Shown one piece after another: positions 32,716-51,654 of a stretch of 64,000 bases of DNA (position 1 is its first letter; every line of letters starts with the position of its first letter). Where the stretch lies: the NCBI GenBank assembly GCA_035651995.1, contig DASRER010000002.1, forward strand, positions 186,001 to 250,000, in the 5' to 3' direction. The translations under genes were made by a program, and so were the position numbers. The DNA comes from Terriglobales bacterium. GTDB lineage: Bacteria; Acidobacteriota; Terriglobia; Terriglobales; Acidobacteriaceae. A model generated the notes under the pieces. That model worked only from the letters and a program-made list of their open reading frames with translations, had not been told where the DNA came from and made no database searches.

Positions 32716-32716
32716 G
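32677..32716. repeat. attL-type core (5' half of tRNA-Ser)
   Basis: TTAGCAAACCGCCGCCTT, then C, then AGCCACTCGGCCACCTCTCCG. It is identical to 51615-51654 except at one base (C here, A there), which falls in the D loop. The repeat begins at the anticodon loop, the usual crossover area for tyrosine integrases that use tRNA genes. Confidence 0.88.
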
Positions 32717-32804: not shown

Positions 32805-32844
32805 GGCATGATTGACCCGCTTGAGAGGCGGGAGGCCATCAGCG

Positions 32845-36032: not shown

Positions 36033-36344
36033 ATGCAGAGAGAGCTACGGCGGATCGCCGACGAAGCCTGGAAGATCGTACTCGATACGCGCAGCACGCG
36101 GATTGAGAAGCTGGAGGCGCTGAAGCTGATCGCAGCCTGCAAGGGCGTCTTGCTCGCCGAGCTTGACGAGCGTTGGCTGACGGTCAAACAGGTGTGCCAG
36201 CTACGGCAGGCGAAGCAGCAGATCGTGGAACGGGTGCTACGCAAGAAGGAACGGCGCAAGCGTGCGAACCGCCGCGCGTACCTGCGTCGGGCGATCCGGG
36301 CAGCAGAGGCACAGCAGGAGGGACACAGTGAGCAAATCCATTGA
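36033..36344 (+). CDS. Phage-type small basic protein, function unknown
   Basis: A 103-residue protein from the ATG at 36033 (AGAGGAAC upstream). It is helical and very basic in its C-terminal half (ERVLRKKERRKRANRRAYLRRAIRAAE), and the N-terminal half reads RIADEAWKIVLDTRSTRIEKLEALKLIAACKG. The last pattern recurs in acidobacterial phage-like proteins of unknown role. It overlaps the next gene by 17 bases. It could be a small terminase-like or DNA-binding protein, but I see no diagnostic motif. Confidence 0.6.
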   Translation: MQRELRRIADEAWKIVLDTRSTRIEKLEALKLIAACKGVLLAELDERWLTVKQVCQLRQAKQQIVERVLRKKERRKRANRRAYLRRAIRAAEAQQEGHSEQIH

Positions 36345-36792
36345 CGAGTTAAAGGCAGAACTCTCCAGTCTGGAGAGCAAGGAACAGAACATAGCAACGG
36401 CCCATGACCCCGGAGACGTTTCGGACGATGATCCGGCGATTGAGGCGTGCATCATTACACCGGACAGCGAGATTGGGCGGCAGTTCCCGTTCTTGGTGAG
36501 GAACCGCGAGCAGGCGAAAGCAGCAATCGTGCGCCAGAGGCGACTCCAGCGGCTATACGCTGTAATCGTCAACGAGTCCGCCCCGATGCCTGAGCGCATA
36601 GCGGCAGCAGCCGTAGTCAAGGCGCAGCTTGCGCCGTGGCATTTCACAGATCGGTATTCACCGGACGAGCTTGTCCGCCGCGTGCGCCCACGCACGGATT
36701 CCCGCCTGGAATACAACCGCGAGGCGGATCGATACGAGCGCCGCCCGCTGGCCGATCCGCCGCAAGAGCCGTTAGACGTGTGGTGCGTCTGA
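36328..36792 (+). CDS. Hypothetical phage-type protein
   Basis: A 154-residue protein starting at GTG 36328, chosen because AGGAGGGA lies directly upstream; the frame is open earlier only within the preceding gene. Acidic N-terminal part with a coiled stretch (SIDELKAELSSLESKEQ), a middle helical part (REQAKAAIVRQRRLQRLYAVIVN), and a basic end. No known domain. It overlaps the preceding gene and converges with the minus-strand gene that ends at 36772. Confidence 0.55.
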   Translation: MSKSIDELKAELSSLESKEQNIATAHDPGDVSDDDPAIEACIITPDSEIGRQFPFLVRNREQAKAAIVRQRRLQRLYAVIVNESAPMPERIAAAAVVKAQLAPWHFTDRYSPDELVRRVRPRTDSRLEYNREADRYERRPLADPPQEPLDVWCV

Positions 36793-38065: not shown

Positions 38066-38950
38066 ATGAAGAGCACTCCGCCCACCACAAAATGCTTCGC
38101 TCATTACCACATGACCGCGAAGGAGTACGGCTTCTGGGACGTTTGCCGTTCACTCTCGCACGAAACCGGCATCCTCTACTTCAATGGGCGTGGGATCGCG
38201 TCCCGTTTCAAGGGAATGCAGAAGACCACAGCCTACGAATTAGCTGACTCCCTCTCACAGTCAGGTTGGTTCAAACTGCTGAAGGACTCTGCGCGGCGCA
38301 GCGATGGCATGTTCTCGCCGCGACAATACCAGGTTCTCAGTCACGCGGAGTGGGCTGCTGAACACCCTGATCAATGCGATCAACCTGTCCGCTCGGACGG
38401 ACTGGATAACGATTCACCTGTCCGCTCGGCAGACTATCCAGTCCGCTCGGCAGACCAGCCTGTCCGCTCGGGCGGACATAATCTGATAGAAACCCTATCT
38501 GATAGAAACCCACCTGATAGAAAACCTGACTACCAAGCGCCTGTCCGCTCGGGCGGACTGGAGGGCTTTGTCGAACGATTCTCTAAACGCCGAAGACCGG
38601 AGGCCAGCGCGAAAGCGGCAGCGCCAAAGCTAACGGCGCAACCTGTCCGGGATAGCGGACAGGGAGAACGCGATACGCAGCGCGAAGCCGAGCGGCTCGC
38701 AACCGCGATTGCAAACACGCTGGGGCTTGCGCATCCCGAAACACGCGCGTCATGGAACGCGGGCGTCAAGGCGCTACTAGACAAAGGGCACCCGCCCGAG
38801 CTTGTGCAGTCGGTCGCAGAGTACGCGCACGCGGAATTTGGCCCTGTCACCATGACCGTGGAAAAAGCGGCGGGCTTTGTTCAGCATTTCGACGGCATCG
38901 CGGAACACATGCGGCGGAAGCGGCAGCAGGAAGGAGCGATGAACCAATGA
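38066..38950 (+). CDS. Phage-type replication initiator-like protein with internal iterons
   Basis: A 294-residue protein. Residues 10-100 look like a winged helix of the helix-turn-helix/replication type (MTAKEYGFWDVCRSLSHETG, then GIASRFKGMQKTTAYELADSLSQSGWFKLL). A middle section holds repeated PVRSxG/PVRSAD units, encoded by DNA iterons, and the C-terminus is helical (WNAGVKALLDKGHPPELVQSVAEYA). The layout resembles lambda O: DNA-binding N-terminus, origin inside the gene, C-terminal helicase-loader contact. AGGAAAGGA precedes the ATG. The next gene overlaps by four bases. I infer initiation of element replication. Confidence 0.68.
   Translation: MKSTPPTTKCFAHYHMTAKEYGFWDVCRSLSHETGILYFNGRGIASRFKGMQKTTAYELADSLSQSGWFKLLKDSARRSDGMFSPRQYQVLSHAEWAAEHPDQCDQPVRSDGLDNDSPVRSADYPVRSADQPVRSGGHNLIETLSDRNPPDRKPDYQAPVRSGGLEGFVERFSKRRRPEASAKAAAPKLTAQPVRDSGQGERDTQREAERLATAIANTLGLAHPETRASWNAGVKALLDKGHPPELVQSVAEYAHAEFGPVTMTVEKAAGFVQHFDGIAEHMRRKRQQEGAMNQ
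38384..38663. repeat. Iteron-like array inside the replication gene, putative origin
   Basis: Five copies of CCTGTCCGCTCGG(A/G/C)(C/A)GGAC-type units, at 38384-38402, 38417-38434, 38438-38455, 38459-38477 and 38540-38558. Most carry the palindrome GTCCGC...GCGGAC or a close form. Between the fourth and fifth are three AT-richer repeats, CTGATAGAAACC at 38483, 38499 and 38514 (the last with one extra A). A related palindrome, CCTGTCC-8-GGACAGG, lies at 38642-38663. Iterons next to an AT-rich tract inside an initiator gene are the hallmark of lambdoid origins. Confidence 0.7.
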
Positions 38951-39213
38951 GCTTGATTCAGCGGATCGAGAACATAATTCGGCTGTGGCAATTGATTCTG
39001 CCCGACATCCCCAAGCCGCAAGCGGTTTGGGTGAGCAGGTGGTGCAGCTATCCGGATTCGGCAATTGAGAAAGGCATCGTGAGAGCGAGCAAGAAATTTG
39101 CGCCCAATCGAACCGGCTCTGTCATTCCTGATCCCGAGTTGGTTTACCAGTACGTGTGCGGCGTAGCCCGCCACGAATCGAAAGGGGAACAAAATGCAAC
39201 GCGGACTAATTGA
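38947..39213 (+). CDS. Small protein following the replication gene
   Basis: An 88-residue protein, MSLIQRIENIIRLWQLILPD..., whose ATG overlaps the stop of the replication gene (ATGA). The piece IPKPQAVWVSRWCSYPDSAIEKGIVRASKK is of a kind found beside phage replication genes, where a helicase loader is expected, but no ATPase or loader motif is present. Its coupling to the initiator suggests a replication partner. Its end overlaps the next gene by 20 bases. Confidence 0.55.
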   Translation: MSLIQRIENIIRLWQLILPDIPKPQAVWVSRWCSYPDSAIEKGIVRASKKFAPNRTGSVIPDPELVYQYVCGVARHESKGEQNATRTN

Positions 39214-39436
39214 GCTTATCTGGCAACAGCAGTTCGGCGAACTTCCTGACGAACGTTTTCTGAGCCTCTTCAGCACCACGTTCAATACCGATGATGACGA
39301 GCGGCGCTTTTCTTGGCTGCTTATGCAATCGAGCGGACGGCATTTTGATACCGAAGATGCGCGGGCCGCTTGGATCGCTGACGGCACCTGGAGAGCCGAG
39401 CTTGAAGGCGACTCCACGCTGCCGCCGTGGAAGTAG
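39194..39436 (+). CDS. Hypothetical small protein
   Basis: An 80-residue acidic, aromatic-rich protein (LIELIWQQQFGELPDERFLSL...) with AAAGGGGAAC ahead of the ATG. It contains several Trp and ends STLPPWK. No domain is recognised. It overlaps the upstream gene and lies 25 bases before the next, so it is part of the same rightward operon. Confidence 0.5.
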   Translation: MQRGLIELIWQQQFGELPDERFLSLFSTTFNTDDDERRFSWLLMQSSGRHFDTEDARAAWIADGTWRAELEGDSTLPPWK

Positions 39437-39461
39437 CAGCACAACTCTCAAACAGGAGCGA

Positions 39462-40115
39462 ATGCAGAGTGAAGATCGCGCGAAGTCGCAAACGATAGCC
39501 GAAATCGAAAGCGATGCGAACACACAGGATCGGCAACGAACAAACGAGCAGTTCTATCAACAGAATTACGGCAGGCTCTTAGACTCCTGCCTTGAATCCG
39601 GCAGCCTGTTCATTCAGGACGCAGAGCGGCTGATCCAGAATCTTGCCGCTCACCTTCCACGATTCACCGGCAGCACGGATGAAGAGTTCATCGCGTGGGC
39701 CAGTGACATTCTGCGGCCCGCTGCTGAACGGCTTTCCGCCTTCTACGCCTTGCGAACTCCCCAAAACGAGCGAGGAGTCCGCAACGGCATTCGCTCCGTG
39801 CTGAAGCGTGCCAGCGATTTAGGACTGAAAGGCACGGGCAAACTGAGCGGCGATACAGAACGCGAAATCGAGGAAGCAGCTTGGTTCAAGGTGTTCGAAG
39901 GGCTTGACGCTTGGATCAAACCCGGCAGGGCAAAGCTCACAACGCGCCTCTACGCGCAAGGGCGATCCCTCGCTCTCGGCTGGAGAACCTCGTCCCTGCG
40001 TCACCGTGACCGGCACCCTGACGTTGATGTTGAACGCTGCGGTGCGGACGCTTGGGGCAGTCTGCACATTGATCCCCAAGCGGAAGACGACAGCAGGCAT
40101 TTGGGAACAGACTGA
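39462..40115 (+). CDS. Hypothetical protein of the replication operon
   Basis: A 217-residue protein from the ATG at 39462, chosen for AGGAGCGA just upstream; the open frame extends earlier through the preceding gene. It is helical throughout, with RNGIRSVLKRASDLGLKGTG, AWFKVFEGLDAWIKPGRAKLTTRLY and ALGWRTSSLRHRDRH. The latter half faintly recalls sigma region 2-like or other RNA-polymerase-associated helices, but I would not assign it. The end is polar and acidic. Confidence 0.55.
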   Translation: MQSEDRAKSQTIAEIESDANTQDRQRTNEQFYQQNYGRLLDSCLESGSLFIQDAERLIQNLAAHLPRFTGSTDEEFIAWASDILRPAAERLSAFYALRTPQNERGVRNGIRSVLKRASDLGLKGTGKLSGDTEREIEEAAWFKVFEGLDAWIKPGRAKLTTRLYAQGRSLALGWRTSSLRHRDRHPDVDVERCGADAWGSLHIDPQAEDDSRHLGTD

Positions 40116-40196: not shown

Positions 40197-40484
40197 GTGG
40201 AAGCTACTACAAACTGTTTTACAGAACTGAGCCTGAAACGAAGCCGCGCCAAGCTGCTCTGCCCGGACGGGCATGGCGTGAAACGGGTAACTAGCGTGGC
40301 GGATGGCCTAGCGCGCCTTTCCTGCGGCTGTACGCGCGGTGAGACGCTGCCCGCGAAGGGCGTTAGCTTAGAGAACCTCTCGCGCTTTGCCGCGAAGAAG
40401 GATCAGGCGCTCGCGCGACGGCTGTTCCCCGCTGTTTGGGATGACGAAACGACAACGCAGCGTGAATGGTACGAGGCTGCATGA
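40197..40484 (+). CDS. Small Cys-containing protein
   Basis: A 95-residue protein starting at GTG 40197 behind a clear GGAGG. It has CPDGHGVKR and SCGCTRGE, a possible zinc-binding Cys/His set, then a helical tail (SLENLSRFAAKKDQALARRLF). No family known to me. Its stop overlaps the ATG of the next gene (ATGA), typical of dense phage gene packing. Confidence 0.5.
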   Translation: MEATTNCFTELSLKRSRAKLLCPDGHGVKRVTSVADGLARLSCGCTRGETLPAKGVSLENLSRFAAKKDQALARRLFPAVWDDETTTQREWYEAA

Positions 40485-40789
40485 CCGAGTTCAGAACGCG
40501 CCACGTCGGGCTGAGTGCCTTCTTGCGGTACTGCTTGGGAAGTGATGCACACCTCGGAACGCTCGCGCTTGAGCGTGGTTTCGAGTTTGTTTTTTCTGAT
40601 AACGGGAAGTGTCGCACGTTGGCTGATCAGTTCTTCAGCGCGGAAGGCGCAGCAGTGACCGACGCGAGGCAACTCCTGGAGTGTGTCAGGGAAATGCGCA
40701 TATCGACCGGAAAAGCGAAAGAACAGGGATGTTGGGATCGCGCCACAGATTTTCAGGAGGAGCATTGTTCGTTGGACATGAAGACCTAA
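40481..40789 (+). CDS. Hypothetical small protein
   Basis: A 102-residue protein, MTEFRTRHVGLSAFLRYCLG..., with its ATG overlapping the previous stop. It starts like a strand-turn-helix domain and ends with a Cys/His-containing tail. It overlaps the next frame for about 25 bases. No homology is recognised; support comes from the coupled start and codon pattern. Confidence 0.45.
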   Translation: MTEFRTRHVGLSAFLRYCLGSDAHLGTLALERGFEFVFSDNGKCRTLADQFFSAEGAAVTDARQLLECVREMRISTGKAKEQGCWDRATDFQEEHCSLDMKT

Positions 40790-41046
40790 CCGGACAGGTG
40801 ATCTGTGGCCTGCGCGTGCTGCGCATTGTCCGCCGTTCGCCCGAGCTTGCGTACTCAGTCGAATGCACGAATCCAGGATGCCAAGCGCAGATGACAGTTT
40901 CACATCGACACTTGCAGACGGGAGCCGCTCGCTGTCTTCGCGGGATCGCCTGCGACCGAGCGCGGCCTGAACCGGTAAGCACAGAGCCGAAGCGCCCAGA
41001 GCTTGATCCGAACCGGCTGACAGTACCGGGCCGCGTTCCGTGGTAG
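40765..41046 (+). CDS. Small zinc-finger-like protein
   Basis: A 93-residue protein if it starts at TTG 40765, which has CAGGAGG six bases upstream. It contains YSVECTNPGCQAQMTVSHRHL, then GAARCLRGIACDRARP, a likely Cys/His zinc site as in transposon- or phage-encoded DNA-binding proteins. The frame is open from 40681, so a longer version is possible. Function unknown. Confidence 0.45.
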   Translation: MFVGHEDLTGQVICGLRVLRIVRRSPELAYSVECTNPGCQAQMTVSHRHLQTGAARCLRGIACDRARPEPVSTEPKRPELDPNRLTVPGRVPW

Positions 41047-41056
41047 GGAGGATGAG

Positions 41057-41698
41057 TTGTTAGAACGAGACCGAATTTCGTTGCGAAAACATCGCGCAGA
41101 AATCGCGGCGCAAGAAGAGGCGGCCCGAATCGAGCGAGAGCGCCCGGTGCGCGAGGCTGAGACTGCGTTACAGCAGTCGGCAACTGAACTCGGCAAGCTC
41201 ACGCGCGAAATGATCCAGAGCGGCAAAGACTCTGACTTTCAACTGCCCGCATCGGTTGCTGGCCGGGGAATGGATTATGAAGAGGCGAGGAAATTTAACG
41301 GCTCAGAGATGCGCGCTTTCATTGCGAGCGAGCCTAGCTTTTTCGACTGCCCCGAGAACCGGGAAGCACTGATTGACTACTTGCTGCGGCAGGATTGCGT
41401 TATCGCGGATGCAGCGACTTACCAAGCGGCGTTTCTGCGACTGCGCGAATACGGCTTGCTAGAAGAGCGTCCCGAGCCGGAGCCGATTCAGGAACCGCCA
41501 AAGCCGCAGCCGGTCGCAGAGCCGACGCCAGAGGTTTTCAAGGGAGTTGATCCAGCTACCGGACTGGAGCGCGAGTTCTCGCGGCGCGAGGTTCAGAGAA
41601 TGGATTCGCTTACCTACCGCAAAGCTTTTGGCCTGTACGGCGAGAACGGGCCAACAGAAACGCTACGTGCAAGCTTGCTGGGCAACAGGCTGCCATGA
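41057..41698 (+). CDS. Hypothetical phage-type protein with coiled-coil start
   Basis: A 213-residue protein from TTG 41057 (GGGAGG upstream). A charged coiled coil (ISLRKHRAEIAAQEEAARIERER) is followed by a folded domain with ALIDYLLRQDCVIADAATYQAAFLRLREYGLLEE, a Pro/Glu linker and a C-terminal piece FSRREVQRMDSLTYRKAFG. The last pattern resembles short segments in phage scaffolding or portal-associated proteins, but not clearly enough to name. It is coupled to the next gene by ATGA. Confidence 0.55.
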   Translation: MLERDRISLRKHRAEIAAQEEAARIERERPVREAETALQQSATELGKLTREMIQSGKDSDFQLPASVAGRGMDYEEARKFNGSEMRAFIASEPSFFDCPENREALIDYLLRQDCVIADAATYQAAFLRLREYGLLEERPEPEPIQEPPKPQPVAEPTPEVFKGVDPATGLEREFSRREVQRMDSLTYRKAFGLYGENGPTETLRASLLGNRLP

Positions 41699-41963: not shown

Positions 41964-42188
41964 ATGGTTCAGAAATTCATCAACAAATTGCAGTACAGAG
42001 CGGAGCGCGTCGTTGTGTGGGCACTCCGGCGCTGCCTGACCGGCTATTCCGCTGTTGTGGCGTGCGAAGTCGCCCGAATCAACGCCGAGCACCGTCAATT
42101 ACGTGCGGAAGCTCAGTTCGTTGCCGCAGATCATTGGCGTCATTTGAATGAGCTACACGCTCGCCTGACCGCACTGGAGAAAAGATAA
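41964..42188 (+). CDS. Small helical protein upstream of virion-like genes
   Basis: A 74-residue protein with a basic, amphipathic N-terminal helix (FINKLQYRAERVVVWALRRC) and a coiled C-terminal part (HWRHLNELHARLTALEKR). AGGAAAT precedes the ATG. Its stop overlaps the ATG of the following MCGAS protein by one base. It could be a membrane-associated or chaperone-like partner of the next protein; no homologue is recognised. Confidence 0.5.
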   Translation: MVQKFINKLQYRAERVVVWALRRCLTGYSAVVACEVARINAEHRQLRAEAQFVAADHWRHLNELHARLTALEKR

Positions 42189-42853
42189 TGTGCGGCGCAT
42201 CCGGTGAGCAGAAGAGCATGTATCAAAGGCAGTCGCAGTTTTATGACTTGGCGACTGATCAGATGAAGCAAGTATTCGGCGACTCTTCCGCCGTGTTTGC
42301 CGATCTGCGGGATACGTTTAGGCCTATTGTGGCCGCTGGCCCGAATCAACGCGGCTTCTCGGACGAAGAGCGAGGTTCGCTCAATACGCAGGCCACTGAA
42401 GGCACAAGCAAGATTTACGAGCACGCCTCCAAGGCCCTCAACGAGGGACTGGCAGCGCGCGGCGGTGGCAATGCGTTCATCCCGAGCGGCGCTGACGAAC
42501 AGTTGCGGCAGGAACTCGCCAGTTCAGCGGCGGAGAACGAAGCGAACCAAAAACTCCGGATCGTGCAGGCCGATTACGACACCGGGCGCGACAACTATTT
42601 CCGCGCTGCGACCGGCCTAGCCGGTGCGCCGAGTGTCTTCAATCCGGCCATTGGGTTTACAAACGCGGCGACAAGCGCCGGTTCAGCCGCAGCCGACACA
42701 GCGAACCAAATCACCCAAGCGAATAATTCTTGGGTAGGCGCGGTGACTGGCGCACTCGGCGGTATCGCGGGCGCGGCTGTTACAGGCGGATTTGGAAAAT
42801 CTAAACCGTCCGGCCCTGCTCCTGCTCCAAGCAGCGGCGGCACATGGATGTAA
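42188..42853 (+). CDS. Phage virion-like protein (MCGAS type)
   Basis: A 221-residue protein beginning MCGASGEQKSMYQRQS, with a helical body (LRDTFRPIVAAGPNQRGFSDEERGSL, ALNEGLAARGGGNAFIPSGADEQLRQELAS), an Ala/Gly-rich segment FTNAATSAGSAAADTANQI and a glycine/alanine hydrophobic stretch (WVGAVTGALGGIAGAAVTGG) before a Pro/Ser tail. Short MCG-starting proteins of this kind lie near internal or ejection proteins in podovirus-like genomes (from memory). I therefore infer a minor virion or DNA-ejection role, alongside the two large proteins that follow. Confidence 0.55.
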   Translation: MCGASGEQKSMYQRQSQFYDLATDQMKQVFGDSSAVFADLRDTFRPIVAAGPNQRGFSDEERGSLNTQATEGTSKIYEHASKALNEGLAARGGGNAFIPSGADEQLRQELASSAAENEANQKLRIVQADYDTGRDNYFRAATGLAGAPSVFNPAIGFTNAATSAGSAAADTANQITQANNSWVGAVTGALGGIAGAAVTGGFGKSKPSGPAPAPSSGGTWM

Positions 42854-42881
42854 AGGTGTACTAGAGGGCGCACTCCCAACC

Positions 42882-42934
42882 GCGTCTCGGCTCGCGCCCG
42901 CCGCTGTTGCTGCGGAACATTAGGGCCGAGACGC
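42882..42934 (+). terminator. Hairpin with T-rich tail after the MCGAS gene
   Basis: GCGTCTCGGC (42882-42891) pairs with GCCGAGACGC (42925-42934) over a 33-base loop. ATTTGTCTTTCATTTC follows, so it is terminator-like for the upstream gene set. Confidence 0.5.
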
Positions 42935-42963
42935 ATTTGTCTTTCATTTCTGGCGCAACCTAT

Positions 42964-43012
42964 GACGGCGAGCCGCGCCAGCGGGTTCTGCCCCGAATCC
43001 AGGCTCGCCGTC
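42964..43012 (+). terminator. Second hairpin with T-rich tail, just before the 742-residue gene
   Basis: GACGGCGAGCC (42964-42974) pairs with GGCTCGCCGTC (43002-43012); TTTCTTTG follows, then GAGGAATC and the ATG at 43028. The tail overlaps the ribosome-binding region, so the hairpin may control expression of the next gene as well as ending transcripts. Confidence 0.5.
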
Positions 43013-43027
43013 TTTCTTTGAGGAATC

Positions 43028-45256
43028 ATGCTCTACGCCAACCCAGATGATGATCTGAACGCACAATCGCAAGCGGACGTACCGAGTACGCCCGCGCCGC
43101 AGCAGACTGCCGCACAGCCGGTAACGCTACAGAATCCCGGCCCTAATCAGGCTCCTGTTCAAGTGGCACAGCAGCCGAAGATCGTCCGCAATCCAGGCGT
43201 ACCGGCACAAGCTCAAGATGCAAACGCGCCTGATCCTGCCGTGCAGCGAGCGCAGCAGAAGGGTACCTTCATTCGCACGCTTGCAGAATCACTAGCAGGT
43301 GGGCCGCGCTTTCAGACGGTCATCAATCCGAGCACCGGAGAGACGCGGCATGATCGCATTCCCCTTTCGCGCGGCGAGATCGGCATGGCAATCGCGCTGG
43401 AGGCGATCAGCGGCGGCTTGGCTGGCCTGAGCGCACGCGGGCCGAACGCTACGGGGCAAGCTGGCCTGCTCGGGCTGCAACAGGGACAGAAGATCAAGGC
43501 CGAGCGCCAGCAGCAACAGCAAGAGCAAGACGAACAGGCGAATAAGGATTTCGTTCGCAGGGCCGCCGTTGCTGAAGCGAACTTGCGAATGCTGAACAAC
43601 GCCGTTCAGGTTGGACGGTTGCAGCGCGAAGATCACGATTCGATGGTGAGCGCCTACGCGGATCAGCTTCAGGACTTCAAGGACAACTCGCCGAATGTAA
43701 TCAAAGCGACTGGCCTTTCCGAAGACGAAGCAAAAGATGTACAGAAATGGCCGCTCGCTGACTTCCTTCGCATCCCTGATGGCACGGTGCCGCGCCTTGG
43801 CCCTGACGGGCAGCAGATCAAGAGCAACGGCGTCCCGCAGTGGGATAACACGTATGCGCTCGTTGATAAGAACGCGAAGGCATCACTCACCAATGCGGAC
43901 GGTCAGCCCGCACAGTGGGTAAAAGATGCGGTCGCATGGAATCTGCCGGGATACCAGCAGTCCATTCTCACAGGATTGGGAGCCGGTTCTCAGGTGTCAG
44001 CGGCAACAGCCGGAAGAGCGCAGCATCAAGTTGTGATGCTGAACGCACTGCAAAGCGAGTTGAACTCCTTCGCGGCGTCGTTCGGAAAAGACAAGGGCGG
44101 CAAGCCGGTAATGTCTCCGGTTGATCTGAAGGCGGCTCTGCAATCCGATCCGCGCTTGCTTACAGCAGTGCAGTCCTTCCAACGAGCAGCGGGTGCGAGC
44201 ACACAGCCGGATCGTCAGATTGACGCGATGCGGCAAGACCCGAAGACCGCGCCGTATGCGGCCCAGATCATCAACCTGTTTGGGGCTGACAACCTGGAGA
44301 AATTCAAGAGCGCACGCGAAGCCCGCGAAGCTGCCGAGAAGACCCGCGCTGAAGCACAGGCACGCGCGGACGTTGATATTGAAAAAGAGACGAAGCTCGG
44401 GCCAATCCGTACAGCGAACGAGCTTGATAAAGAAAAGAAGCTCATCCCGGTTCGGGCTGCGACCGCTGGCGCGGAAGCGAAAGCACGCGCTGAGGCGACG
44501 GCTACGGCTCCGAAGAACGAAGACGGCAGTTGGAACATGAGCAGTGTTCCTGTTCAGCTTGTCGAGGGCACGATTGATCCTTCTCAGCTTTCCAAACGTA
44601 GTCAGCAGTACAACCAAGTCATCGAAGCCGCGAATGCGTATTCGCTCCAGAGGTACGGCAAAGCATTCGATCTGGCACAGGCACAGAGCGATTACCGTTT
44701 CGCCTCGAACCCGAGCACGCAAAACACACTGCGATACCTGAACTCCCTAACAGGTGCAGACAATCGCTCCGGTAACTTGGGCGCGTTGGTTTCGCTGTCA
44801 AACAAAATCAACCGGACGAGCTTCCCCGCGCTGAACGACGCGGCTGCATGGGCACGGCTGCAAACCGGCGATCCGCAGATGGCTTCCTATCACGCTGCTG
44901 TTACGGAAGTGGCCGATCAGATTGCGAAGATTCTCCAAGGGGGAGGCAGCGGTTCAGGCACGTCAGACGCGAAGCTGAAACAGGCTGCTGAACTCTTCGA
45001 CAAAGGCTTTAACAAAGATCAGATCACGGGCGTAAGCGATACGCTGCGCACGCTGCTGGCAAACCGCAAAACGGAACTGATCGGCGACAACCGATATCTG
45101 CGTAAGCAGTTTGGGCAACCCAATTCGGCTGCTCCGGCCCTTCAGCAAGGCTTTGTGCGCTTCCAGGACTCGCAGGGCGGGCTTCACGATATTCCGCAAG
45201 CGAACCTCCCAGCGGCTCGGCAGCGCGATCCCGGCTTGCGCGTGGTTCAGCAGTAA
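43028..45256 (+). CDS. Large virion-like (internal/ejection-type) protein
   Basis: A 742-residue protein. The N-terminus is Pro/Gln/Ala-rich and disordered (1-75), then MAIALEAISGGLAGLSARG, a Gln/Glu coiled coil near 155-175, several Ala-rich helical blocks with a strong coiled coil near 425-495 (REAREAAEKTRAEAQARADV), and a C-terminal helical part. Length, low complexity and coiled coils resemble internal virion or pilot proteins of short-tailed phages; no lysozyme, transglycosylase or nuclease motif was found. GAGGAATC precedes the ATG. Role inferred, not shown. Confidence 0.55.
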   Translation: MLYANPDDDLNAQSQADVPSTPAPQQTAAQPVTLQNPGPNQAPVQVAQQPKIVRNPGVPAQAQDANAPDPAVQRAQQKGTFIRTLAESLAGGPRFQTVINPSTGETRHDRIPLSRGEIGMAIALEAISGGLAGLSARGPNATGQAGLLGLQQGQKIKAERQQQQQEQDEQANKDFVRRAAVAEANLRMLNNAVQVGRLQREDHDSMVSAYADQLQDFKDNSPNVIKATGLSEDEAKDVQKWPLADFLRIPDGTVPRLGPDGQQIKSNGVPQWDNTYALVDKNAKASLTNADGQPAQWVKDAVAWNLPGYQQSILTGLGAGSQVSAATAGRAQHQVVMLNALQSELNSFAASFGKDKGGKPVMSPVDLKAALQSDPRLLTAVQSFQRAAGASTQPDRQIDAMRQDPKTAPYAAQIINLFGADNLEKFKSAREAREAAEKTRAEAQARADVDIEKETKLGPIRTANELDKEKKLIPVRAATAGAEAKARAEATATAPKNEDGSWNMSSVPVQLVEGTIDPSQLSKRSQQYNQVIEAANAYSLQRYGKAFDLAQAQSDYRFASNPSTQNTLRYLNSLTGADNRSGNLGALVSLSNKINRTSFPALNDAAAWARLQTGDPQMASYHAAVTEVADQIAKILQGGGSGSGTSDAKLKQAAELFDKGFNKDQITGVSDTLRTLLANRKTELIGDNRYLRKQFGQPNSAAPALQQGFVRFQDSQGGLHDIPQANLPAARQRDPGLRVVQQ

Positions 45257-45265
45257 AGGACATCC

Positions 45266-47017
45266 ATGAGCACCAATTCACCTTTGAACTTTGACGATCT
45301 AGGCGCGAAACAGGTGTCTGTTGCACCAGCAACGGGCAGCTTGGATTTTTCCGATCTAGGCGCAAAGACGATTTCACCGGCTCCGCCTCCCACCGCACCA
45401 AACGCTCAGCCGCATTCCTTCACTGAAGACGTGGCACAGGGCTTTGGTGCGGCAGCCGGTGAGACGTTGATCAACGCGGGCAAGCTCGGCAGCAAGATTC
45501 CAGGCGTGTCCTATGTCGCTGAAAAGATCGGCGACGTTGCGGGCCTGCCCAAGCTCGCTCCCGGTACCGATCCCTACGCGGTTGTTGAACAGCGCACTGC
45601 TCCCGCGCGGGCCGCTGCGCTCAGCACAACTGCGGGGAAGATCGGCTACGGCCTGGAAGGACTCGCCGAGTTCATTGCAGGTGACGAAGCCCTCAAGGGC
45701 TTGAGCTATGGCGAAAGGCTGTTGAAGACAGCGCAGATCGCCAAGTTCCTTGAGAAGTCTCCACGCCTCGCAAAGGCCGTTGAAATCGGAATGAACGTTT
45801 TACGCACCGGTACTGTTGGCGGGACGCAGGGACTCGCTCACGGCGAATCACCGGGCGAGGCTGCTGCGACCGGAGCCGTTGCGGGTGGAACCGGTGCGGC
45901 ATTTGAGTTAGCGGCAGAAGGCGCGAAGGCACTTGCTCCCACAATCAAGAAGATTGCGGGCGAAGCGATCCCCGTCCGCGCATCCCAGGAATCGAAACTG
46001 GCGAGCGCGGCTGAGAGCGTCTCACGCGAAGCCCCGTTGCAACGGTTCGATGTCGAACAGACACAGCCCGCCGCACGCAGAGCAGTCGGCAATGTCGCAA
46101 CAGACGTAAAGAATACGGCTGCGCAGAAGATCGGCAGCGACACAGGCGATTTCAGGCAGGCCGTCAAGGAACTCGGTAACGGCAAGTCATTCGCCGATCT
46201 GCCCACAGGCGAGCAGAGCAAGATTCTCGCTCGCGCTCAGGAATTGAAGACCGCACGCAACGGACTGTCGGCTGCTTCCAAGGCTGCCGACTTCGGAGAA
46301 GCGGCGGATCAGATGCGAGCGCAAGCGAAGCCGATTTACGAAAAGCTGGACGAACTCACCAAAGATCAGGAAATGACATTCTCTGATCTTCAGCGAGCCG
46401 AGCGATCCGCTTTCAACAAAGGCGATTACGAAGCCGCAACGAAGGCACAGCGAGCACAAGAGAAAATCTTCGACGCCAACAAAGATCAGTTCTCCGATCC
46501 GGACGCTTACACGAACGCGCGGAAGGCATGGCGACAGGCATCAGCTTTGGACAAAATCCATGACACGATCACATCGAAGGGCGTCATGGAATCCACGCCG
46601 AACGATCTGATCCAGCGCGGTACGTCTGACCCGCGATACATCAAGGGCAAGCAATTCGCAGACACCGTTCTGTACTTGCGGGATACCGGCCTGCTCAAAG
46701 ACGCGGGCCTGACTCCGCAGCACGTTCAGAACCTCCAGGACATCGCGGCGATACTGCGGAGCGGCGGAGAGGTTCAGAAAGCCAATCAGGTTGCGAAGGC
46801 TTTCAAACTCGCCAAGATCGCAGTTGGCGGGCCAGCAACAGCGGGCGCGGGTTGGGGAGCATCAGCCGTGCTCGGCAAGATTCTGACTGATCCGAAAGCG
46901 GCGGCACTGGCCGCGAAGACGCTTCAGGCGGGCGCGAAGGCTGCTCCGGCTGCTGTGTCACAAGGCGCGCGGGCGATCTTCAATGCCTCCAGGGATTCGC
47001 TCGGCGGGCAGCAGTAA
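45266..47017 (+). CDS. Large virion-like protein with N-terminal FxDLGAK repeats
   Basis: A 583-residue protein. Its N-terminus has two repeats, LNFDDLGAKQ and LDFSDLGAKT, separated by about 15 residues, a layout seen at the start of some phage internal proteins. Next come Ala/Gly-rich amphipathic or membrane-active stretches (GMNVLRTGTVGGTQGLAHGE; GAVAGGTGAAFELAAEGAKAL), coiled coils (about 290-420) and another Ala/Gly hydrophobic stretch near the end (KIAVGGPATAGAGWGASAV). It starts nine bases after the preceding gene's stop. I infer a DNA-ejection or internal protein; no enzymatic motif is visible. Confidence 0.55.
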   Translation: MSTNSPLNFDDLGAKQVSVAPATGSLDFSDLGAKTISPAPPPTAPNAQPHSFTEDVAQGFGAAAGETLINAGKLGSKIPGVSYVAEKIGDVAGLPKLAPGTDPYAVVEQRTAPARAAALSTTAGKIGYGLEGLAEFIAGDEALKGLSYGERLLKTAQIAKFLEKSPRLAKAVEIGMNVLRTGTVGGTQGLAHGESPGEAAATGAVAGGTGAAFELAAEGAKALAPTIKKIAGEAIPVRASQESKLASAAESVSREAPLQRFDVEQTQPAARRAVGNVATDVKNTAAQKIGSDTGDFRQAVKELGNGKSFADLPTGEQSKILARAQELKTARNGLSAASKAADFGEAADQMRAQAKPIYEKLDELTKDQEMTFSDLQRAERSAFNKGDYEAATKAQRAQEKIFDANKDQFSDPDAYTNARKAWRQASALDKIHDTITSKGVMESTPNDLIQRGTSDPRYIKGKQFADTVLYLRDTGLLKDAGLTPQHVQNLQDIAAILRSGGEVQKANQVAKAFKLAKIAVGGPATAGAGWGASAVLGKILTDPKAAALAAKTLQAGAKAAPAAVSQGARAIFNASRDSLGGQQ

Positions 47018-47027
47018 AGGAACACAC

Positions 47028-47324
47028 ATGACAAAGACACTATTCCCAAATGACCAGACGAGATTGACGGTGGTTTACAGCATCACGCAGGCTGACGGGA
47101 AAAAGATCGCCTGGATTGACCACGGTTACGTAATCGAGTGGAACGGCTCAGAGATTTCGGCTGCTACGGAGTTGAAAGGTAGGAATCAGCCTCGTGATCA
47201 CTTCGCTTCGTTCAATTACGTTGTTCAGGGAACAACCGGGATCGCGGCGACGGCGAGTATCAATTCGTGCGATTACACGGATGACGCGCGCTTTGCCGAG
47301 CTTGTGCAGGACATGATCGGCTAA
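47028..47324 (+). CDS. Hypothetical small beta-rich protein
   Basis: A 98-residue protein from the ATG at 47028 (AAAGGAAC upstream), ten bases after the preceding gene. It is beta-rich (RLTVVYSITQADGKKIAWIDHGYVIEW) with a single Cys near the end. It has no known family. It is the last gene of the rightward virion-like set; a small GACTC/GAGTC hairpin separates it from the convergent gene. Confidence 0.5.
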   Translation: MTKTLFPNDQTRLTVVYSITQADGKKIAWIDHGYVIEWNGSEISAATELKGRNQPRDHFASFNYVVQGTTGIAATASINSCDYTDDARFAELVQDMIG

Positions 47325-47343: not shown

Positions 47344-48516
47344 TCACTGTTTGCGGCCAACAAGAATTGTGATTGACACCTTGTCTGGGTTAACACCGAT
47401 TTCGATCCCATTGCCGAGCGAGAACGCCTCGTCGATATACGTGCATCTCAGTCCCGCGGCTTCCGCCGCAGCCTTGAAGGTCTTGCCAGTTTCACTATTC
47501 CACTGATCTGAATAGCAGAGAATCCCGTGTACTGGACGGATGCGCATGTTGGCAGCCGTGCGCGGCCACTGCGCAGCCTTCGCTACACGAAATAATTGAT
47601 CAATGAGTTCCTCAGCATCCTCGCTGATACCAGCCGGGAAAATCTTCAATGCGCCCGGAAAAGGTGCGATGGCCGCTGCAAAAGCGGGGAGGTTCGATTC
47701 ATTTAGCGTGCGATCCGGCGGAGCCTCGTTAATTGTTGCGGAGTTGTTGTCGCCGATCTGGGCGATGTTATTCCTCCCACTTTGAGCAATGGTAGGTAGT
47801 GCGGCCTGTCGCACAGCCCGCGGTTTGGGCGATTGTCCTTCTGAAGAAGTGAGCGAACTTTGGTCGCCGAGTCGCCAGTGTTCACCCATCTGTCCGAGCC
47901 GGTGGTTAACCCAATCCTTAGGAAGCGGCTCAGCGCCGGTTGACATTCCTAGGCTCGCATCATGTGTCCTGATGTATTCGTTTCTCAGTTGAGAGAGAAT
48001 AATTTGTCGTCGCTTCGCTTCCTCCGGGGTTGGCCCGATCACGGGGTGTTGAACGGTTGCAGTGACTTGAGCAGCGATCCCAACATGAGCGAGACTGGTA
48101 TCCTCCTTGGGAAGTGTCATCTCTTTTACTCGTTCTGCGAGCCGGTCGATTGTCGCCCTGTTCTGAATGAGCGATTGACGAATATCCTGCTCGTGCGTCG
48201 GTAAGAACGTCGATCCTGCGGCGACGCCTGCCGCGATTGCAATTCCAAACGTCCAAATCTTGCTCCTTGCGCCAAATCGAGCTATGCGCTCGCCAGGAGC
48301 GATAATCGAGTCCCGTCGCGCTATGAGCACATAGACGGCCATTAACAACAATAGGCAGAAAACGCCCAAGGCGACGGTGCGAGCAATGGCAGGCGAAGTA
48401 CCCGATGCGTGGGCGTTTTCAACGAAGCGGGACAGAGCTAGAAGGATCGCTCCCGAGACAACGTCGCAGAGAATCTGTTCAGCACGGTTACGAAGACGGT
48501 CGGAAACTCTAGCCAT
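47344..48516 (-). CDS. Membrane protein of unknown function, cargo region
   Basis: A 390-residue protein. Three hydrophobic segments lie at about residues 15-32, 43-64 and 85-105, then a soluble part begins with a helix (LIQNRATIDRLAERVKEM). Near 250 it has IAQSGRNNIAQIGDNNSAT, an NNxAxIG-type repeat like those of curli-related proteins, and ends in an alpha/beta domain (FKAAAEAAGLRCTYIDEAF). It does not match any defence family I know. It is on the opposite strand from the virion-like genes, as expected for cargo expressed in the integrated state. Confidence 0.6.
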   Translation of the reverse strand: MARVSDRLRNRAEQILCDVVSGAILLALSRFVENAHASGTSPAIARTVALGVFCLLLLMAVYVLIARRDSIIAPGERIARFGARSKIWTFGIAIAAGVAAGSTFLPTHEQDIRQSLIQNRATIDRLAERVKEMTLPKEDTSLAHVGIAAQVTATVQHPVIGPTPEEAKRRQIILSQLRNEYIRTHDASLGMSTGAEPLPKDWVNHRLGQMGEHWRLGDQSSLTSSEGQSPKPRAVRQAALPTIAQSGRNNIAQIGDNNSATINEAPPDRTLNESNLPAFAAAIAPFPGALKIFPAGISEDAEELIDQLFRVAKAAQWPRTAANMRIRPVHGILCYSDQWNSETGKTFKAAAEAAGLRCTYIDEAFSLGNGIEIGVNPDKVSITILVGRKQ

Positions 48517-48762
48517 TGCTGTTCTTCAATGCTGCCGCTTTCGTTTGAACTGAAGATGGCAACACCGCATCGATTTTGCACATAACGCGCTCCTACCACT
48601 GGACAGCCGCCGCGATCAGCGATTCGGTACGCGGCGAGCTCTTTGAGTCGAACAGGTCTTCGGCGATCTTTGCCAGCAACCCGATTCCGGCCCTTCGTCC
48701 ATTCAGGCATCCTAGTACTTTCGCCTTGTGTTCGCCAGATAGCCGGTGCTACTCTCCCCTTC

Positions 48763-49233
48763 ATGCCTCACTTGTTCATCGGTTTCAGCGGGATCGCCTC
48801 TGGCGTTGGAATATTCATCATTGTGTGGCTGGTCGTGTGCTCAAGAACGGCTCAGTTTACCGCGTTCGCGTTTGACGCTCCAGGTGAGAACGGCAGATTC
48901 GAAAAACTGCTCCCCGTGTATCTGCGTGTCGCTGAGGTGATCATTGGTCTGGCGGCTGGATCGATTGTGCTTCTTATAGGATCATCCGCTTTCCGCACAG
49001 GTGGTCAGTTGCCTTGGTTCTTTGCCTCCCCGCTGTTTCTACTCGCTTTCAGCATCATCTACGGAATCTTGTTCATGGTCTTTGTGATCTTTGATTACGA
49101 AGCATATAGGCATCATCCAGATTCTCAATCCTACACCCGACTCAAGTACACCAAGAATCAAGCTTTGGGTTTCTCGGGCCTTTTCTGTTTCTGCGTTGGA
49201 TACGCCTGGTTGATTATTACAGTCACCAGGTAA
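48763..49233 (+). CDS. Four-helix membrane protein, cargo region
   Basis: A 156-residue protein from the ATG at 48763, with about four hydrophobic segments (ASGVGIFIIVWLVVC; VIIGLAAGSIVLLIGSSAF; FFASPLFLLAFSIIYGIL; LGFSGLFCFCVGYAWLII). No clear ribosome-binding site precedes the ATG, and the frame is open from 48643, so the start is uncertain. It is divergent from the 390-residue membrane protein, with 246 bases between. Function unknown; two membrane proteins side by side suggest a functional pair. Confidence 0.5.
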   Translation: MPHLFIGFSGIASGVGIFIIVWLVVCSRTAQFTAFAFDAPGENGRFEKLLPVYLRVAEVIIGLAAGSIVLLIGSSAFRTGGQLPWFFASPLFLLAFSIIYGILFMVFVIFDYEAYRHHPDSQSYTRLKYTKNQALGFSGLFCFCVGYAWLIITVTR

Positions 49234-49374
49234 AGGCTTCTTCCTAACATTTACCTTTGGAGGCAGTGAGCATTTGCGAGCCAAGGTGCGGCCCAATGCC
49301 CAGTGTCCTTGCGGGAGCGGATTGAAGAGGCATCTCGATCACGTCGGGTGACAACATCCAACGAAAACAAAGTG

Positions 49375-49986
49375 CTATCGGCATCCCTTCCGTTCCCACT
49401 CGTCTTTCGCCTTCGCGTCCGCTGTCGTTTGCCATTGCATGTTGAACGGCGAGTCCGCCCCGCCACACGCCAACGCAATCCTGTGATCAATGACGTAACC
49501 GGGACAAGGCCCGGAACTCCTGCCGGTCGAGGGGCATGGATGTAAATGTTTGAAAGCGTCCTTCGCCGCTTCGCTTCGCTTTTCGCGTCCGCGCGAATCA
49601 TGGCTAGAAAGTGAGGTGCTACGCCGATGCGTTGACGTTGCCCCTACCGGCCCGATCCTGGAAGGTGCTACGCTGCGCGTTCGGGGCGCGGCGTAATGTG
49701 TACGCGGCGTGCTGGATCGCCTTGGAGTAGTACCCGGAAGGCTGCGCGTGTGAGAGTGGACAACCGTTCCGTTGCGCCGCGTATACGTTCCTACGTGTAC
49801 AGGCTTCCTCGTGCTGGAGCGACTGCTATAGCTGCGGCTGGAGTACGACCGGCTGGAATGCGCGCGGTAACTACGGCTTGAATAACCGCGAGAAGAGGAA
49901 CGGGAGCGACCGCCGCGTCCCCGTCCAAAAAGAGGCAGGGCGATCAGCAGCGCGCAAAGGAAGGTGACGATAAACCGCCGCGCCAT
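49375..49986 (-). CDS. Secreted HNH-type endonuclease-like protein
   Basis: A 203-residue protein with a signal peptide (FIVTFLCALLIALPLFG), a long Ser/Arg/Tyr-rich linker containing tandem SSRSY units (about 28-60), and a C-terminal HNH-like domain (about 148-203): CPGYVIDHRIALACGGADSPFNMQWQT. The conserved DH and N positions of the HNH fold are present, but the usual second metal-binding His is unclear. Possible roles: an exported nuclease acting on incoming or environmental DNA, or a toxin. GGAGA lies ahead of the ATG. Confidence 0.65.
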   Translation of the reverse strand: MARRFIVTFLCALLIALPLFGRGRGGRSRSSSRGYSSRSYRAHSSRSYSSRSYSSRSSTRKPVHVGTYTRRNGTVVHSHTRSLPGTTPRRSSTPRTHYAAPRTRSVAPSRIGPVGATSTHRRSTSLSSHDSRGREKRSEAAKDAFKHLHPCPSTGRSSGPCPGYVIDHRIALACGGADSPFNMQWQTTADAKAKDEWERKGCR

Positions 49987-50141
49987 GTGCTCTCCAAACG
50001 CGAAAGCCTAACACCGGAGCACTCGCTACCCAAGAGTAAATACCCTTGAGCGCGCCCAAACGTGGTCGTCATTCCGTTGACACTATCAATGGCCTCAAGT
50101 AGGCTCCGCGAAGACTATTTCACTTCAGAGGCCGAGCAGTT

Positions 50142-50630
50142 ATGTTCTGCAATAAGTGTGGAACAGACTTGCCTGACGATTCGCAGTTCTGTCGAAAGTG
50201 CGGCAAACCGCAGAACGCTGTCGCTATGCAGGCTGGAATTGGAGCCGCTCCCGCTCCTGCCCGTGAGGCGGAGAAGACGTTCTACCAGGGGAACGGGGTA
50301 ACCGTAACCAGCACTCGTTTCATCGTTCCGGGGCAGACATACGCAATGGCGAGCGTGACGAGTGTACGGTTCGAACGGATTCCGCCCAAGAGAGGAGCGC
50401 CGATCCTAATCACGATAATCGGATTCCTCGTCCTCATGTTCCCAGAAGGACGTTGGTTCGGGGTTACGCTCTTGGTATTCGGTATTCTCTGGCTTCTCCT
50501 GTTGAAGACCAATTGTGCAGTTGCGCTTAGCAGCGCGTCAGGCGAAGTGCGCGCAATCAAGAGCACGGATTCAGACTTCATTACGGGCATCGTGGATGCG
50601 CTCAACGATGCCATTGTGTATCGCCGCTAA
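50142..50630 (+). CDS. Zinc-ribbon protein with DUF6232-like membrane domain
   Basis: A 162-residue protein. Two CxxC pairs (CNKCGTDLPDDSQFCRKCG) form an N-terminal zinc ribbon. The rest has the order of the DUF6232 family: a short beta part (TFYQGNGVTVTSTRFIV and VTSVRFERIPPKRG), two hydrophobic segments (ILITIIGFLVLMF; FGVTLLVFGILWLLLL), then AVALSSASGEVRAIKSTD. Function unknown. It lies alone in the cargo region, with AGAGG ahead of the ATG. Confidence 0.65.
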   Translation: MFCNKCGTDLPDDSQFCRKCGKPQNAVAMQAGIGAAPAPAREAEKTFYQGNGVTVTSTRFIVPGQTYAMASVTSVRFERIPPKRGAPILITIIGFLVLMFPEGRWFGVTLLVFGILWLLLLKTNCAVALSSASGEVRAIKSTDSDFITGIVDALNDAIVYRR

Positions 50631-50703
50631 TCTCTGATTGATGGCGGCCCGACACGCGCATCTTTTACGTGCTACATGGTGGTGGTCGTTACAGGAGCGA
50701 TGA

Positions 50704-51264
50704 ATGCCCGAATCCCTCGTTTATGAATGCGCTCCCCCTCCGTTTATTGCTCCGCCCGGAACGACTCCTCATACCGAGCAATTTGGGTCATTACTGCTGA
50801 AGGAATCGTACATTGAAGGAGACACACACCCGTACCGGCTGAGGATGGAAGCCCAACCATCCACGAAGGAGGAGGCACAACGCATCCACCATGAGGCATT
50901 GGATTTGGCAACCAACCTCGACAGGGTATGGGCTTACGTGGCAGGCGAACCGTTGTTTGCGAAACGGTTGATCTTGCGGCGAGCAGACGCGCCGGGAAAA
51001 ACCGATACGCAACGTGAAGGCGCGCTATCGGCAGATGTGCGGAGCGAGTTACGCCAGTCGCTACATTGGCTATACGACATCGCAAACAATCGCCTTGAAG
51101 TCAGGCATGTGGTATCAAAAGGCAAGAGCGGCTCAGCCGGTACACTCCTGCCGAAGCTAACTGCGGCGGAACGCCGCGACTTCTTGCACGATGCAGACCT
51201 CGTGATTCGGGGCGTGGTGGAGCGGGAAATCGGAGTTCCAGCCGCAATTGTGCGAACGAGGTAA
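50704..51264 (+). CDS. Hypothetical protein, cargo region
   Basis: A 186-residue soluble protein from the ATG at 50704, behind CAGGAGCG. It has a mixed alpha/beta pattern with no known domain; Trp/His-rich patch LHWLYDIANNRLEVRHV and a C-terminal basic helix. It is followed after 37 bases by a small gene on the same strand. No signal peptide or membrane segment is seen. Confidence 0.55.
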   Translation: MPESLVYECAPPPFIAPPGTTPHTEQFGSLLLKESYIEGDTHPYRLRMEAQPSTKEEAQRIHHEALDLATNLDRVWAYVAGEPLFAKRLILRRADAPGKTDTQREGALSADVRSELRQSLHWLYDIANNRLEVRHVVSKGKSGSAGTLLPKLTAAERRDFLHDADLVIRGVVEREIGVPAAIVRTR

Positions 51265-51301
51265 TGGCTAAAAAAAAAAGAGCGGAGAAAGCTGAAGAGG
51301 A

Positions 51302-51487
51302 ATGAGCATTACGAAGATCGAACAGATTTCAGGCGAGCTGAGCGCGACGGTATTCGCAGAGATCAGACTCGCTCCCGGCACGGCTGTGGAAGATGGCACC
51401 TACACATTGCGGTACAGCTTCGACGGGCAGCAATCAGCGACCGCCGTTCGAATCAAATTCGGACACTTGCTTGCAGCACACGGGTAG
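51302..51487 (+). CDS. 61-residue hypothetical protein at the element's right end
   Basis: A small beta-rich protein (MSITKIEQISGELSATVFAEI...) with GAAGAGGA just ahead of the ATG. It is probably co-transcribed with the 186-residue gene. It is the last gene before the right-end ACTGCAT pair and att core. Function unknown. Confidence 0.5.
   Translation: MSITKIEQISGELSATVFAEIRLAPGTAVEDGTYTLRYSFDGQQSATAVRIKFGHLLAAHG

Positions 51488-51614: not shown

Positions 51615-51654
<40 letters not shown>

Follow-up and report, generated by a model that had tools for sequence, protein, structure and literature searches.

Several families of phage satellites have been described; those named in the excerpts of the review used here are P4, PICI, cfPICI, PLE, PICMI, VEIME, and Tycheposons (PMC11389934). 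As far as the cited sections go, known satellites intervene in induction of the helper, in the size of its capsid, and in packaging, and some bring capsids (PMC11389934, PMC10803314, PMC10690885, PMC5644958, PMC6893505). CpmB of SaPI1 has a C-terminal coat-binding motif in common with the scaffold of the helper 80alpha and makes small capsids (PMC5644958), while Sid of P4 is a protein of the satellite's own that redirects capsid size as an external cage (PMC6893505). The cfPICI bring their own capsids (PMC11389934), the Mulch and Flayer satellites bring encapsidation machinery (PMC10690885), and PICMI, in the excerpt describing them, are small satellites of virulent phages with reduced gene content and no capsid remodelling (PMC10803314). 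Here, an integrated element is analyzed that is located in a 64,000-nucleotide stretch of a Terriglobales genome (contig DASRER010000002.1, positions 186,001 to 250,000), which as a whole is referred to as the window. With a probability of about 0.7, this element would belong to a new family of integrating acidobacterial phage satellites that parasitize podoviruses like Tunturi_3, combining heads and tails of the helper with scaffold-like and internal or ejection proteins of its own. Tunturi_3 is an isolated podovirus of 97.6 kb with a 76.7-nm head (PMC11924767, in part). The elements are rated as a new family and variant of phage satellites.

Late podovirus-type genes of the element

The first-pass annotation of the window had pointed to a run of genes for minor or internal virion proteins, and the three open reading frames (ORFs) in question are present, all on the forward strand: those of the MCGAS protein (221 residues; 42188..42853), of a 742-residue protein (43028..45256), and of a 583-residue protein (45266..47017). 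At the guanine plus cytosine (GC) content of the element, open runs of 742 and 583 codons would have chance probabilities of ~2e-12 and ~6e-10, respectively. The MCGAS gene, which is present in a single copy in the window's genome, encodes a homologue of Tunturi_3 gp23 (47% identity); no other of 50,697 phage records was matched. The 742-residue protein is a homologue of Tunturi_3 gp24 (9e-22; 7e-14 in the search of the phage records, where a Bradyrhizobium phage was also matched weakly at 1e-4) and is included in the tree described below. For the 583-residue protein, tblastn and a profile reveal homology to the gene in third cassette position on related viral contigs; it matches in 13/36 loci by BLAST (best tblastn 1.3e-16), and its family profile matches in 14 viral ORFs.

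These loci are designated by L numbers, the viral loci coming from viral contigs with MCGAS-type genes; G numbers designate genomes, G000 being the window's own and the others those of relatives. The window's MCGAS protein alone as query found no viral contig, and a four-row alignment found 36 loci; the MCGAS scan of the genome contigs gave one locus, in the same range as that of G305. By BLAST, the Tunturi_3 structural gene gp19 lies within 33 of the 36 loci, and within 35 when whole records are counted, since it occurs elsewhere in the records of L040 and L044; L052 is a piece of a contig, with an MCGAS protein identical to that of L033. The same loci include gp12 in 23 cases, the tail protein gp13 and the tail fibre gp20 in 21 cases each, gp22 in 18, and the 742-residue protein in 16, and TerL is present in 23/36 records. 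On the viral contig of L022 (10001-11297), one MCGAS-type ORF directly follows another, and the protein in third cassette position is unusually short. For comparison with all seven elements considered below, a phage set of 1,600 ORFs of at least 90 residues was compiled from the 36 viral loci and Tunturi_3; at 1e-3, the matches in the window were confined to the MCGAS, 742-residue, and 583-residue proteins and to reverse-strand shadows of the 583-residue protein gene. By these comparisons, the cassette consists of homologues of three consecutive late podovirus genes in the same order.

Among the last structural genes of T7, those of the ejection proteins gp14, gp15, and gp16 follow in a row as small, middle, and large, and the small protein starts with MC. 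The cassette products are labelled ejection proteins because their gene order resembles this arrangement, and an internal or ejection role would be predicted from gene order and position. Of the profile and structure searches by which the annotation proposed to check its reading, the former, together with BLAST, showed the homology to late genes of Tunturi_3 and the viral contigs; there was no significant fold or PDB match. Searches of the cassette proteins in PHROGs and Pfam yielded nothing convincing. The AlphaFold model of the 221-residue protein is all helical, with a predicted local distance difference test (pLDDT) value of 69.9; that of the 742-residue protein has a pLDDT of 64.9. Podovirus virion and "DNA transfer" proteins occur as weak matches in the BFVD list and were not counted as support; the VIA-align matches were set aside as common helical arrangements.

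The family of integrated elements

The element is integrated at a tRNA-Ser(GCT) gene (32622..32715, reverse strand; ARAGORN) and bounded by a 40-bp direct repeat, whose copies at the tRNA end (32677..32716) and at the distal end (51615..51654) are identical in 39/40 positions. In intervals of 1 kb, the GC content is 0.53-0.61 inside the element versus mostly 0.64-0.70 in the flanks. The tRNA is adjoined by the gene of a tyrosine integrase (32812..34035, forward; Pfam Phage_integrase, 1.8e-8) with homologues in G036, G305, G618, G313, and G225. Of the features by which satellites are recognized, an own integrase and attachment sites are present, and in the searches described below the genes for virion and packaging do not form a full set. 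In the window, the integrase is located at the element end opposite the cassette; in the five other genomes it follows the variable slot described below.

MCGAS is found in 3/396 genomes of a phylum sample and in 5/398 of a family sample, the window's own genome included; among 62 genomes of the genus of G036 it occurs in G036 itself only. Two of the family-sample matches, G619 and G575, have gp19 beside the MCGAS gene (L012, L013) and encode TerL, on the MCGAS contigs in G619 and on another contig in G575, and both are taken as probable phages. In G619, MCGAS genes occur at C124:35189 and C120:26719, each contig also encoding TerL, and these are possible helper-type prophages. In G036 and G305, an integrase and the cassette lie in elements in which head and tail genes were not found and which have attachment repeats of 55 and 45 bp, respectively, at tRNA-Ala(CGC). 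In the search of acidobacterial genomes suggested in the annotation, integrase, replication genes, and cassette, without head or tail genes, were thus encountered together again in G036 and G305; G618 has the same combination with only two of the cassette genes. The tRNA genes used differ from that of the window. Apart from a weak terminase match in G313, the search for a resident Tunturi_3-type helper gave nothing.

The hallmark protein of the family, o213 (41057..41698, forward), is found in 6/398 genomes of the family sample and in the same six among 278 of an order-level sample; o176 (36262..36792, forward; no assigned function), which has homologues in G036, G578, G618, and G313, is found in 5/398 genomes, all of them among these six. 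The six genomes, G000, G036, G578, G618, G313, and G225, possess a largely colinear backbone of o176, a replication-type gene, o153, o274, o107, and o121/o213. The second of these would be represented in the window by the ORF at 38066..38950 (forward), a putative replication-module protein judged from its place, without Pfam match and 34% identical to a 327-residue G578 protein in the same position. The genes of o153 (38752..39213), whose second half is conserved, and of o274 (39291..40115), with no assigned function, are both on the forward strand and have homologues in all five other genomes; o107 (40466..40789, forward) has homologues in G578, G618, G313, and G225. The exceptions to the common order are the absence of o176 in G225 and of o107 in G036 and a replication-type gene that differs in kind. 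None of o176, o153, o274, and o107 has a match in the viral ORFs examined.

The genes following o213 constitute a variable slot. It is occupied by MCGAS-742-583 in the window, by MCGAS-720-435 in G036, and in G618 by 780-468 and a 237-residue fibre-anchor protein without MCGAS; in G313 it contains other genes, in G225 it is empty, and in G578 two proteins that appear fibre-like by eye are encoded ahead of o213 in place of slot genes. The 237-residue protein matches Tunturi_3 gp16 (7.8e-12) and gp18 (1.3e-10), the latter being annotated as tail fibre. G036 retains a gp22 homologue before the cassette, so that gp22-gp23-gp24 match three neighbouring G036 genes. The third proteins of G036 and G618 resemble each other (38%), and the one encoded in G305 has a match in phage L042 with E 0.0. 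The integrases of G036 (C1:1648975-1650150) and G305 (C10:66590-67747) are 78% identical and use the same tRNA-Ala(CGC) site. Otherwise the two elements have few matching proteins, and it seems that the integration module is exchanged independently of the body of the element.

Measured from repeat to repeat, the elements comprise 18,938 bp in the window, 18,793 in G036, 17,938 in G305, 17,542 in G618, 18,061 in G313, and 18,834 in G225. These six elements bounded by attachment repeats, from one bacterial family and with different cargo, are in the range of 17.5-18.9 kb (mean 18,351, standard deviation 580); in G578, no attachment repeat was found at the one tRNA in its stretch. The elements of G225 and G313 hold other genes and no cassette yet keep to this range; such equal length with and without the cassette is indicative of a limit set by packaging.

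In the MCGAS tree (40 rows; without L021, L027, and L041, which have no closed ORF, and L015, the second piece of the L014 match), the copies of the window, G036, and G305 lie apart, and their union in one clade is rejected (approximately unbiased test, p 5e-42); the window copy has no well-supported neighbour, and L013 forms a long branch. In the tree of the 742-type proteins (34 rows, with 29/36 viral loci; without L017, L021, L027, L029, L034, L041, and L052), the copies of G036 and G618, which stem from different genera and tRNA sites, form a 100/100 pair without phages, that of G305 belongs to a 98/99 group with nine phages, and the window copy is not placed closely. Well-supported branches force three changes between the phage and satellite labels in the former tree and two in the latter; the polarity from phage to satellite is an assumption, and the trees do not fix the direction. 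Our reading is that the cassette would have been acquired more than once and inherited within satellites in one case, that of G036 and G618.

Scaffold-position protein, helper, and rival explanations

The C-terminal domain of o213 is of the type of a phage pre-capsid gene and is shared with the relatives of Tunturi_3 gp4 and with gp4 itself, which is encoded between the portal and the major head gene. Direct BLAST with the window protein gave L089 at 2.5e-8, L087 at 3.3e-8, and L088 at 1.3e-7, and the o213-type protein of G313 matched L017 at 3.8e-10. In hhalign, o213 aligned with the gp4 family at 98.8% and E 5.6e-17 over 117 columns, with controls at 0.1% and 0.4%. A gp4 profile of 16 proteins, run against 700 element ORFs, found the window o213 at 1.2e-15 as well as proteins of G618, G313, G578, and G225; a 305-residue G305 protein was matched at 4.8e-4 (hhalign 78.5%), indicative of a weak scaffold-type domain, and G036 was not listed at E 1, though its protein is 38% identical to o213 of the window. 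Downstream of the gp4-type gene, 14 of the 16 stretches have a homologue of the capsid gene on the same strand, within 60 bp in 7/14 and at 0.3-1.8 kb in the rest; none was seen in the stretches of L084 and L089. Scaffold genes usually precede the capsid gene, and by gene position the gp4 family and o213 would be scaffold-like, o213 being a putative alternative scaffold. An earlier pattern search of the viral contigs had given no relative of o213; the scaffold-position match came later from BLAST and profiles. In the satellites, a Cys-rich domain and a charged stretch are placed ahead of the scaffold-type domain. In the window (40681-41698), the Cys-rich domain, which is zinc-finger-like by its Cys pattern as judged by eye and has no Pfam match (o121, 40681..41046, forward), and the scaffold-type domain are two ORFs, which are one gene in G036, G578, G618, and G313 and are split differently in G225; GGGAGG precedes the TTG start of o213.

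In the favoured scenario, infection by the helper would cause excision and replication of the element. The scaffold-like protein (41057-41698) would compete with the helper scaffold, resulting in a smaller head for ~18 kb, and the satellite's MCGAS, 742-residue, and 583-residue proteins would replace the internal or ejection core of the helper, which would supply capsid, portal, terminase, and tail. An own core could be of advantage in that a small head needs a smaller core, or in that DNA entry is adapted to the preferred host of the satellite. The ejection and the capsid-size role are both predicted from gene position. The broader notion that such satellites hijack podoviruses by means of scaffold-derived small heads and an own miniature DNA-ejection core, sometimes with a tail-fibre anchor, and would in this way control which cells are entered, is tentative, with chances placed a little under even.

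Lengths of the second and third cassette proteins were compared with those of 25 phages, namely, Tunturi_3 and 24/36 viral loci (without L017, L021, L027, L028, L030, L031, L032, L034, L041, L044, L045, and L052), in which the middle protein has 496-972 and the third 451-2050 residues. The sum of both is 1325 residues in the window, 1155 in G036, and 1248 in G618, the third proteins of the latter two counting as third by place. In the 24-row tree group holding these three, 20/21 phages are longer than all of them; the G305 pair, with 1761 residues, is below L042, L029, L046, and L038 (1922-2244). In the rank test over 25 phages, p was 0.017 when the sum was compared and 0.036 when the third protein was, values that are not clean probabilities because the rows are related; a 12-phage subset (U=0, p 0.002) had been picked after the tree, and the wider count is used instead. 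The shorter pair is in keeping with a core reduced to suit a small head, and no more than that.

The annotation had also reported no large terminase, portal, major capsid, tail-tube, holin, or endolysin genes. Among 99 ORFs of three elements, no terminase, portal, capsid, tail, holin, or endolysin family was found at 1e-3 in Pfam (all 20 matching families) or in PHROGs (best 25 of 41 matching families). When 27 Tunturi_3 proteins (gp1-gp28 without gp17) were compared with 700 ORFs of the seven elements at 0.01, there was no terminase, portal, or major capsid match; only homologues of gp4, gp16/18, gp22, gp23, and gp24 were matched. The statement holds for these searches, with the reservation that 41057-41698 encodes a homologue of a pre-capsid gene, so that functions in capsid assembly may not be missing altogether. 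An own set of major capsid, portal, and head genes, as in cfPICI, was not found among the Pfam and PHROGs matches listed or in the Tunturi_3 comparisons. A 118-residue and a 176-residue protein, considered as small terminases, had no match in the viral ORFs.

Several results weigh against the satellite interpretation. A Tunturi_3-type TerL was not found in the genomes of G000, G036, and G305, nor was gp19; in G578, G618, G313, and G225 the only TerL match is a weak one in G313 (1.3e-4) on another contig, so that this terminase is absent from 6/7 element genomes and, apart from the G313 match, there is no sign of a Tunturi_3-type helper residing in the same genome. Such a missing resident helper fits a virulent or divergent one. 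Neither a small terminase among the Pfam and PHROGs matches listed nor a packaging signal was identified. The Tunturi_3 record (PP885686), whose annotation includes terminase, portal, and major head and tail genes, describes gp24 as "lytic tail fiber protein" and gp19 as "head decoration protein". The 583-residue protein has no match in the phage records, Tunturi_3 gp25 included; the third protein of G036 resembles it only weakly (0.001), and at 1e-3 the phage ORFs include no match to the third protein of either G036 or G618. In searches of PDB profiles with the three cassette families, all matches were weak and internal proteins of phages were not among them, and Foldseek at E 0.001 gave none for both models versus PDB and for the 221-residue model versus BFVD; for the gp4 family, there is no named PHROG and no convincing PDB relative, the weak matches including no scaffold protein. 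The L022 pair, with 1078 residues, is shorter than that of any satellite, and many phages of the other group have a shorter pair than G305. By BLASTP, G305 and G036 share little beyond integrase, resolvase, and MCGAS. Finally, G225 and G313 lack the cassette and G618 lacks MCGAS, from which it follows that the family can do without the cassette.

The explanation that survives best beside the favoured one, with which it overlaps, is that the main gain lies in retargeting by the parts that decide on entry, namely, the ejection proteins and, in G618 and G578, fibre-type proteins, and that the scaffold-like gene does something else. It would account for the gp16/gp18 (tail fibre) match of the G618 237-residue protein, for the fibre-like look of the long G578 proteins, and for the relation of the cassettes to different phage lineages, but it leaves the fixed element size and the scaffold-type gene unexplained, and the slot proteins of G578 and G618 have no PHROGs match at 0.05; on balance it is rather unlikely. 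Distinctly less probable is a cassette whose products have no role in own particles and would instead poison DNA ejection of the helper or of competitors or block superinfection. Many satellites carry anti-phage systems, according to the cited part of PMC11389934, Argonaute-type defence families match ORFs of three elements (in G305 by eye), and the cassette is optional; the retention of a long three-gene set in phage order and the fibre-anchor domain in G618, however, fit incorporation into virions better.

The annotation had left the choice between a satellite and a decayed prophage, and the satellite is favoured by recurring elements, near-constant size, separate tree positions, and consecutive late genes. 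A remnant of a Tunturi_3-like prophage that has lost its head, tail, and packaging genes and retains a few late genes by chance would be compatible with split genes (o121/o213 in the window; G225), with the lack of MCGAS in G618, and with cassette copies that are separate in the trees, as separate decay events would give. Decay would hardly leave the block open and in order in the window, G036, and G305, and two of its three genes in G618, at different tRNA sites; nor would it produce the narrow size range, the backbone of o176, o153, o274, and o107 unmatched in viral ORFs, the satellite-only pair of 742-type proteins in G036 and G618, and further head or tail matches confined to the pre-capsid-type gene, the gp22 homologue of G036, and the fibre anchor of G618. 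Decay is considered improbable, slightly more so than the interference cassette. An autonomous small virus or transfer agent with an unrecognized capsid among the unassigned genes, for which several backbone proteins without known family might be adduced, is very improbable, as the relatives of the element's recognizable virion-type genes are found in late modules of tailed phages, and the capsid and portal of these phages are lacking in the element.

The remaining genes of the window element include a 74-residue ORF before the cassette (41964..42188, forward; no homologue found) and a 113-residue ORF after it (46983..47324, forward; no homologue found in the viral loci). The right-end cargo (47344..51487) comprises ORFs of 390, 196, and 203 residues, a zinc-ribbon/DUF6232 protein (50142-50630), and ORFs of 186 and 61 residues, without match among the phage ORFs. 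The 203-residue protein (49375-49986, reverse) has an Arg/Ser-rich, secreted-looking start and an end that is HNH-like by eye, without Pfam match. At the left end of the G305 element (C10:50209-53066; L008:10210-13067, reverse) are ORFs of 490 and 462 residues, to which the pAgo_I (6e-166; short prokaryotic Argonaute) and Aga_REase (4e-127) matches of the ORF set were assigned by eye. In G036 (C1:1631785-1634562; L006:3786-6563), a 925-residue cargo protein matches phrog_14719 at 8e-153, and the HSDR_N match of the same ORF set probably belongs to it.

Comparison with known satellites

In the literature covered, mainly open-access papers without bioRxiv, no account was found of a satellite with virion proteins of internal or ejection type, and no paper with both "phage satellite" and "Acidobacteri". 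If the proposed scenario is true, entry into the next cell would be a further step that satellites take over, and satellite control would extend to DNA delivery, beyond capsid size or packaging. A testable system would be at hand, since the soil bacteria are cultivable and suitable phages, the Tunturi viruses, have been isolated (PMC11924767, in part).

With SaPI and PICI, the element has in common that it is an integrating island and that the C-terminus of o213 is shared with a phage pre-capsid gene, as that of CpmB is with the scaffold; it differs in that no small terminase was identified, in that internal or ejection-type virion proteins are encoded, and in that its relatives are of podovirus type. 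P4-like satellites are small helper-dependent elements in which an own protein, Sid, redirects capsid size, and the same is predicted for this family; Sid forms an external cage, and the candidate of this family is scaffold-like. The P4 markers psu, sid, and delta are not among the Pfam and PHROGs matches listed, with no marker-by-marker search having been made. Virion genes of their own are also a property of cfPICI and of Mulch and Flayer, which, in contrast to this family, bring capsid or encapsidation genes; here, no capsid gene but late internal-type genes are found. PICMI are similarly small satellites, and differ from the present elements, which measure ~18 kb and include genes of scaffold type and of internal virion type. 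T7 gp14-gp15-gp16 resemble the cassette in the order of small, middle, and large and in the MC start, without significant match to the cassette proteins in sequence or, with models of middling confidence, in fold. Tunturi_3 is related in that its gp22-gp23-gp24 match neighbouring genes in G036 and its gp4 family matches o213, and differs in being a 97.6-kb phage with annotated terminase, portal, and major head and tail genes.

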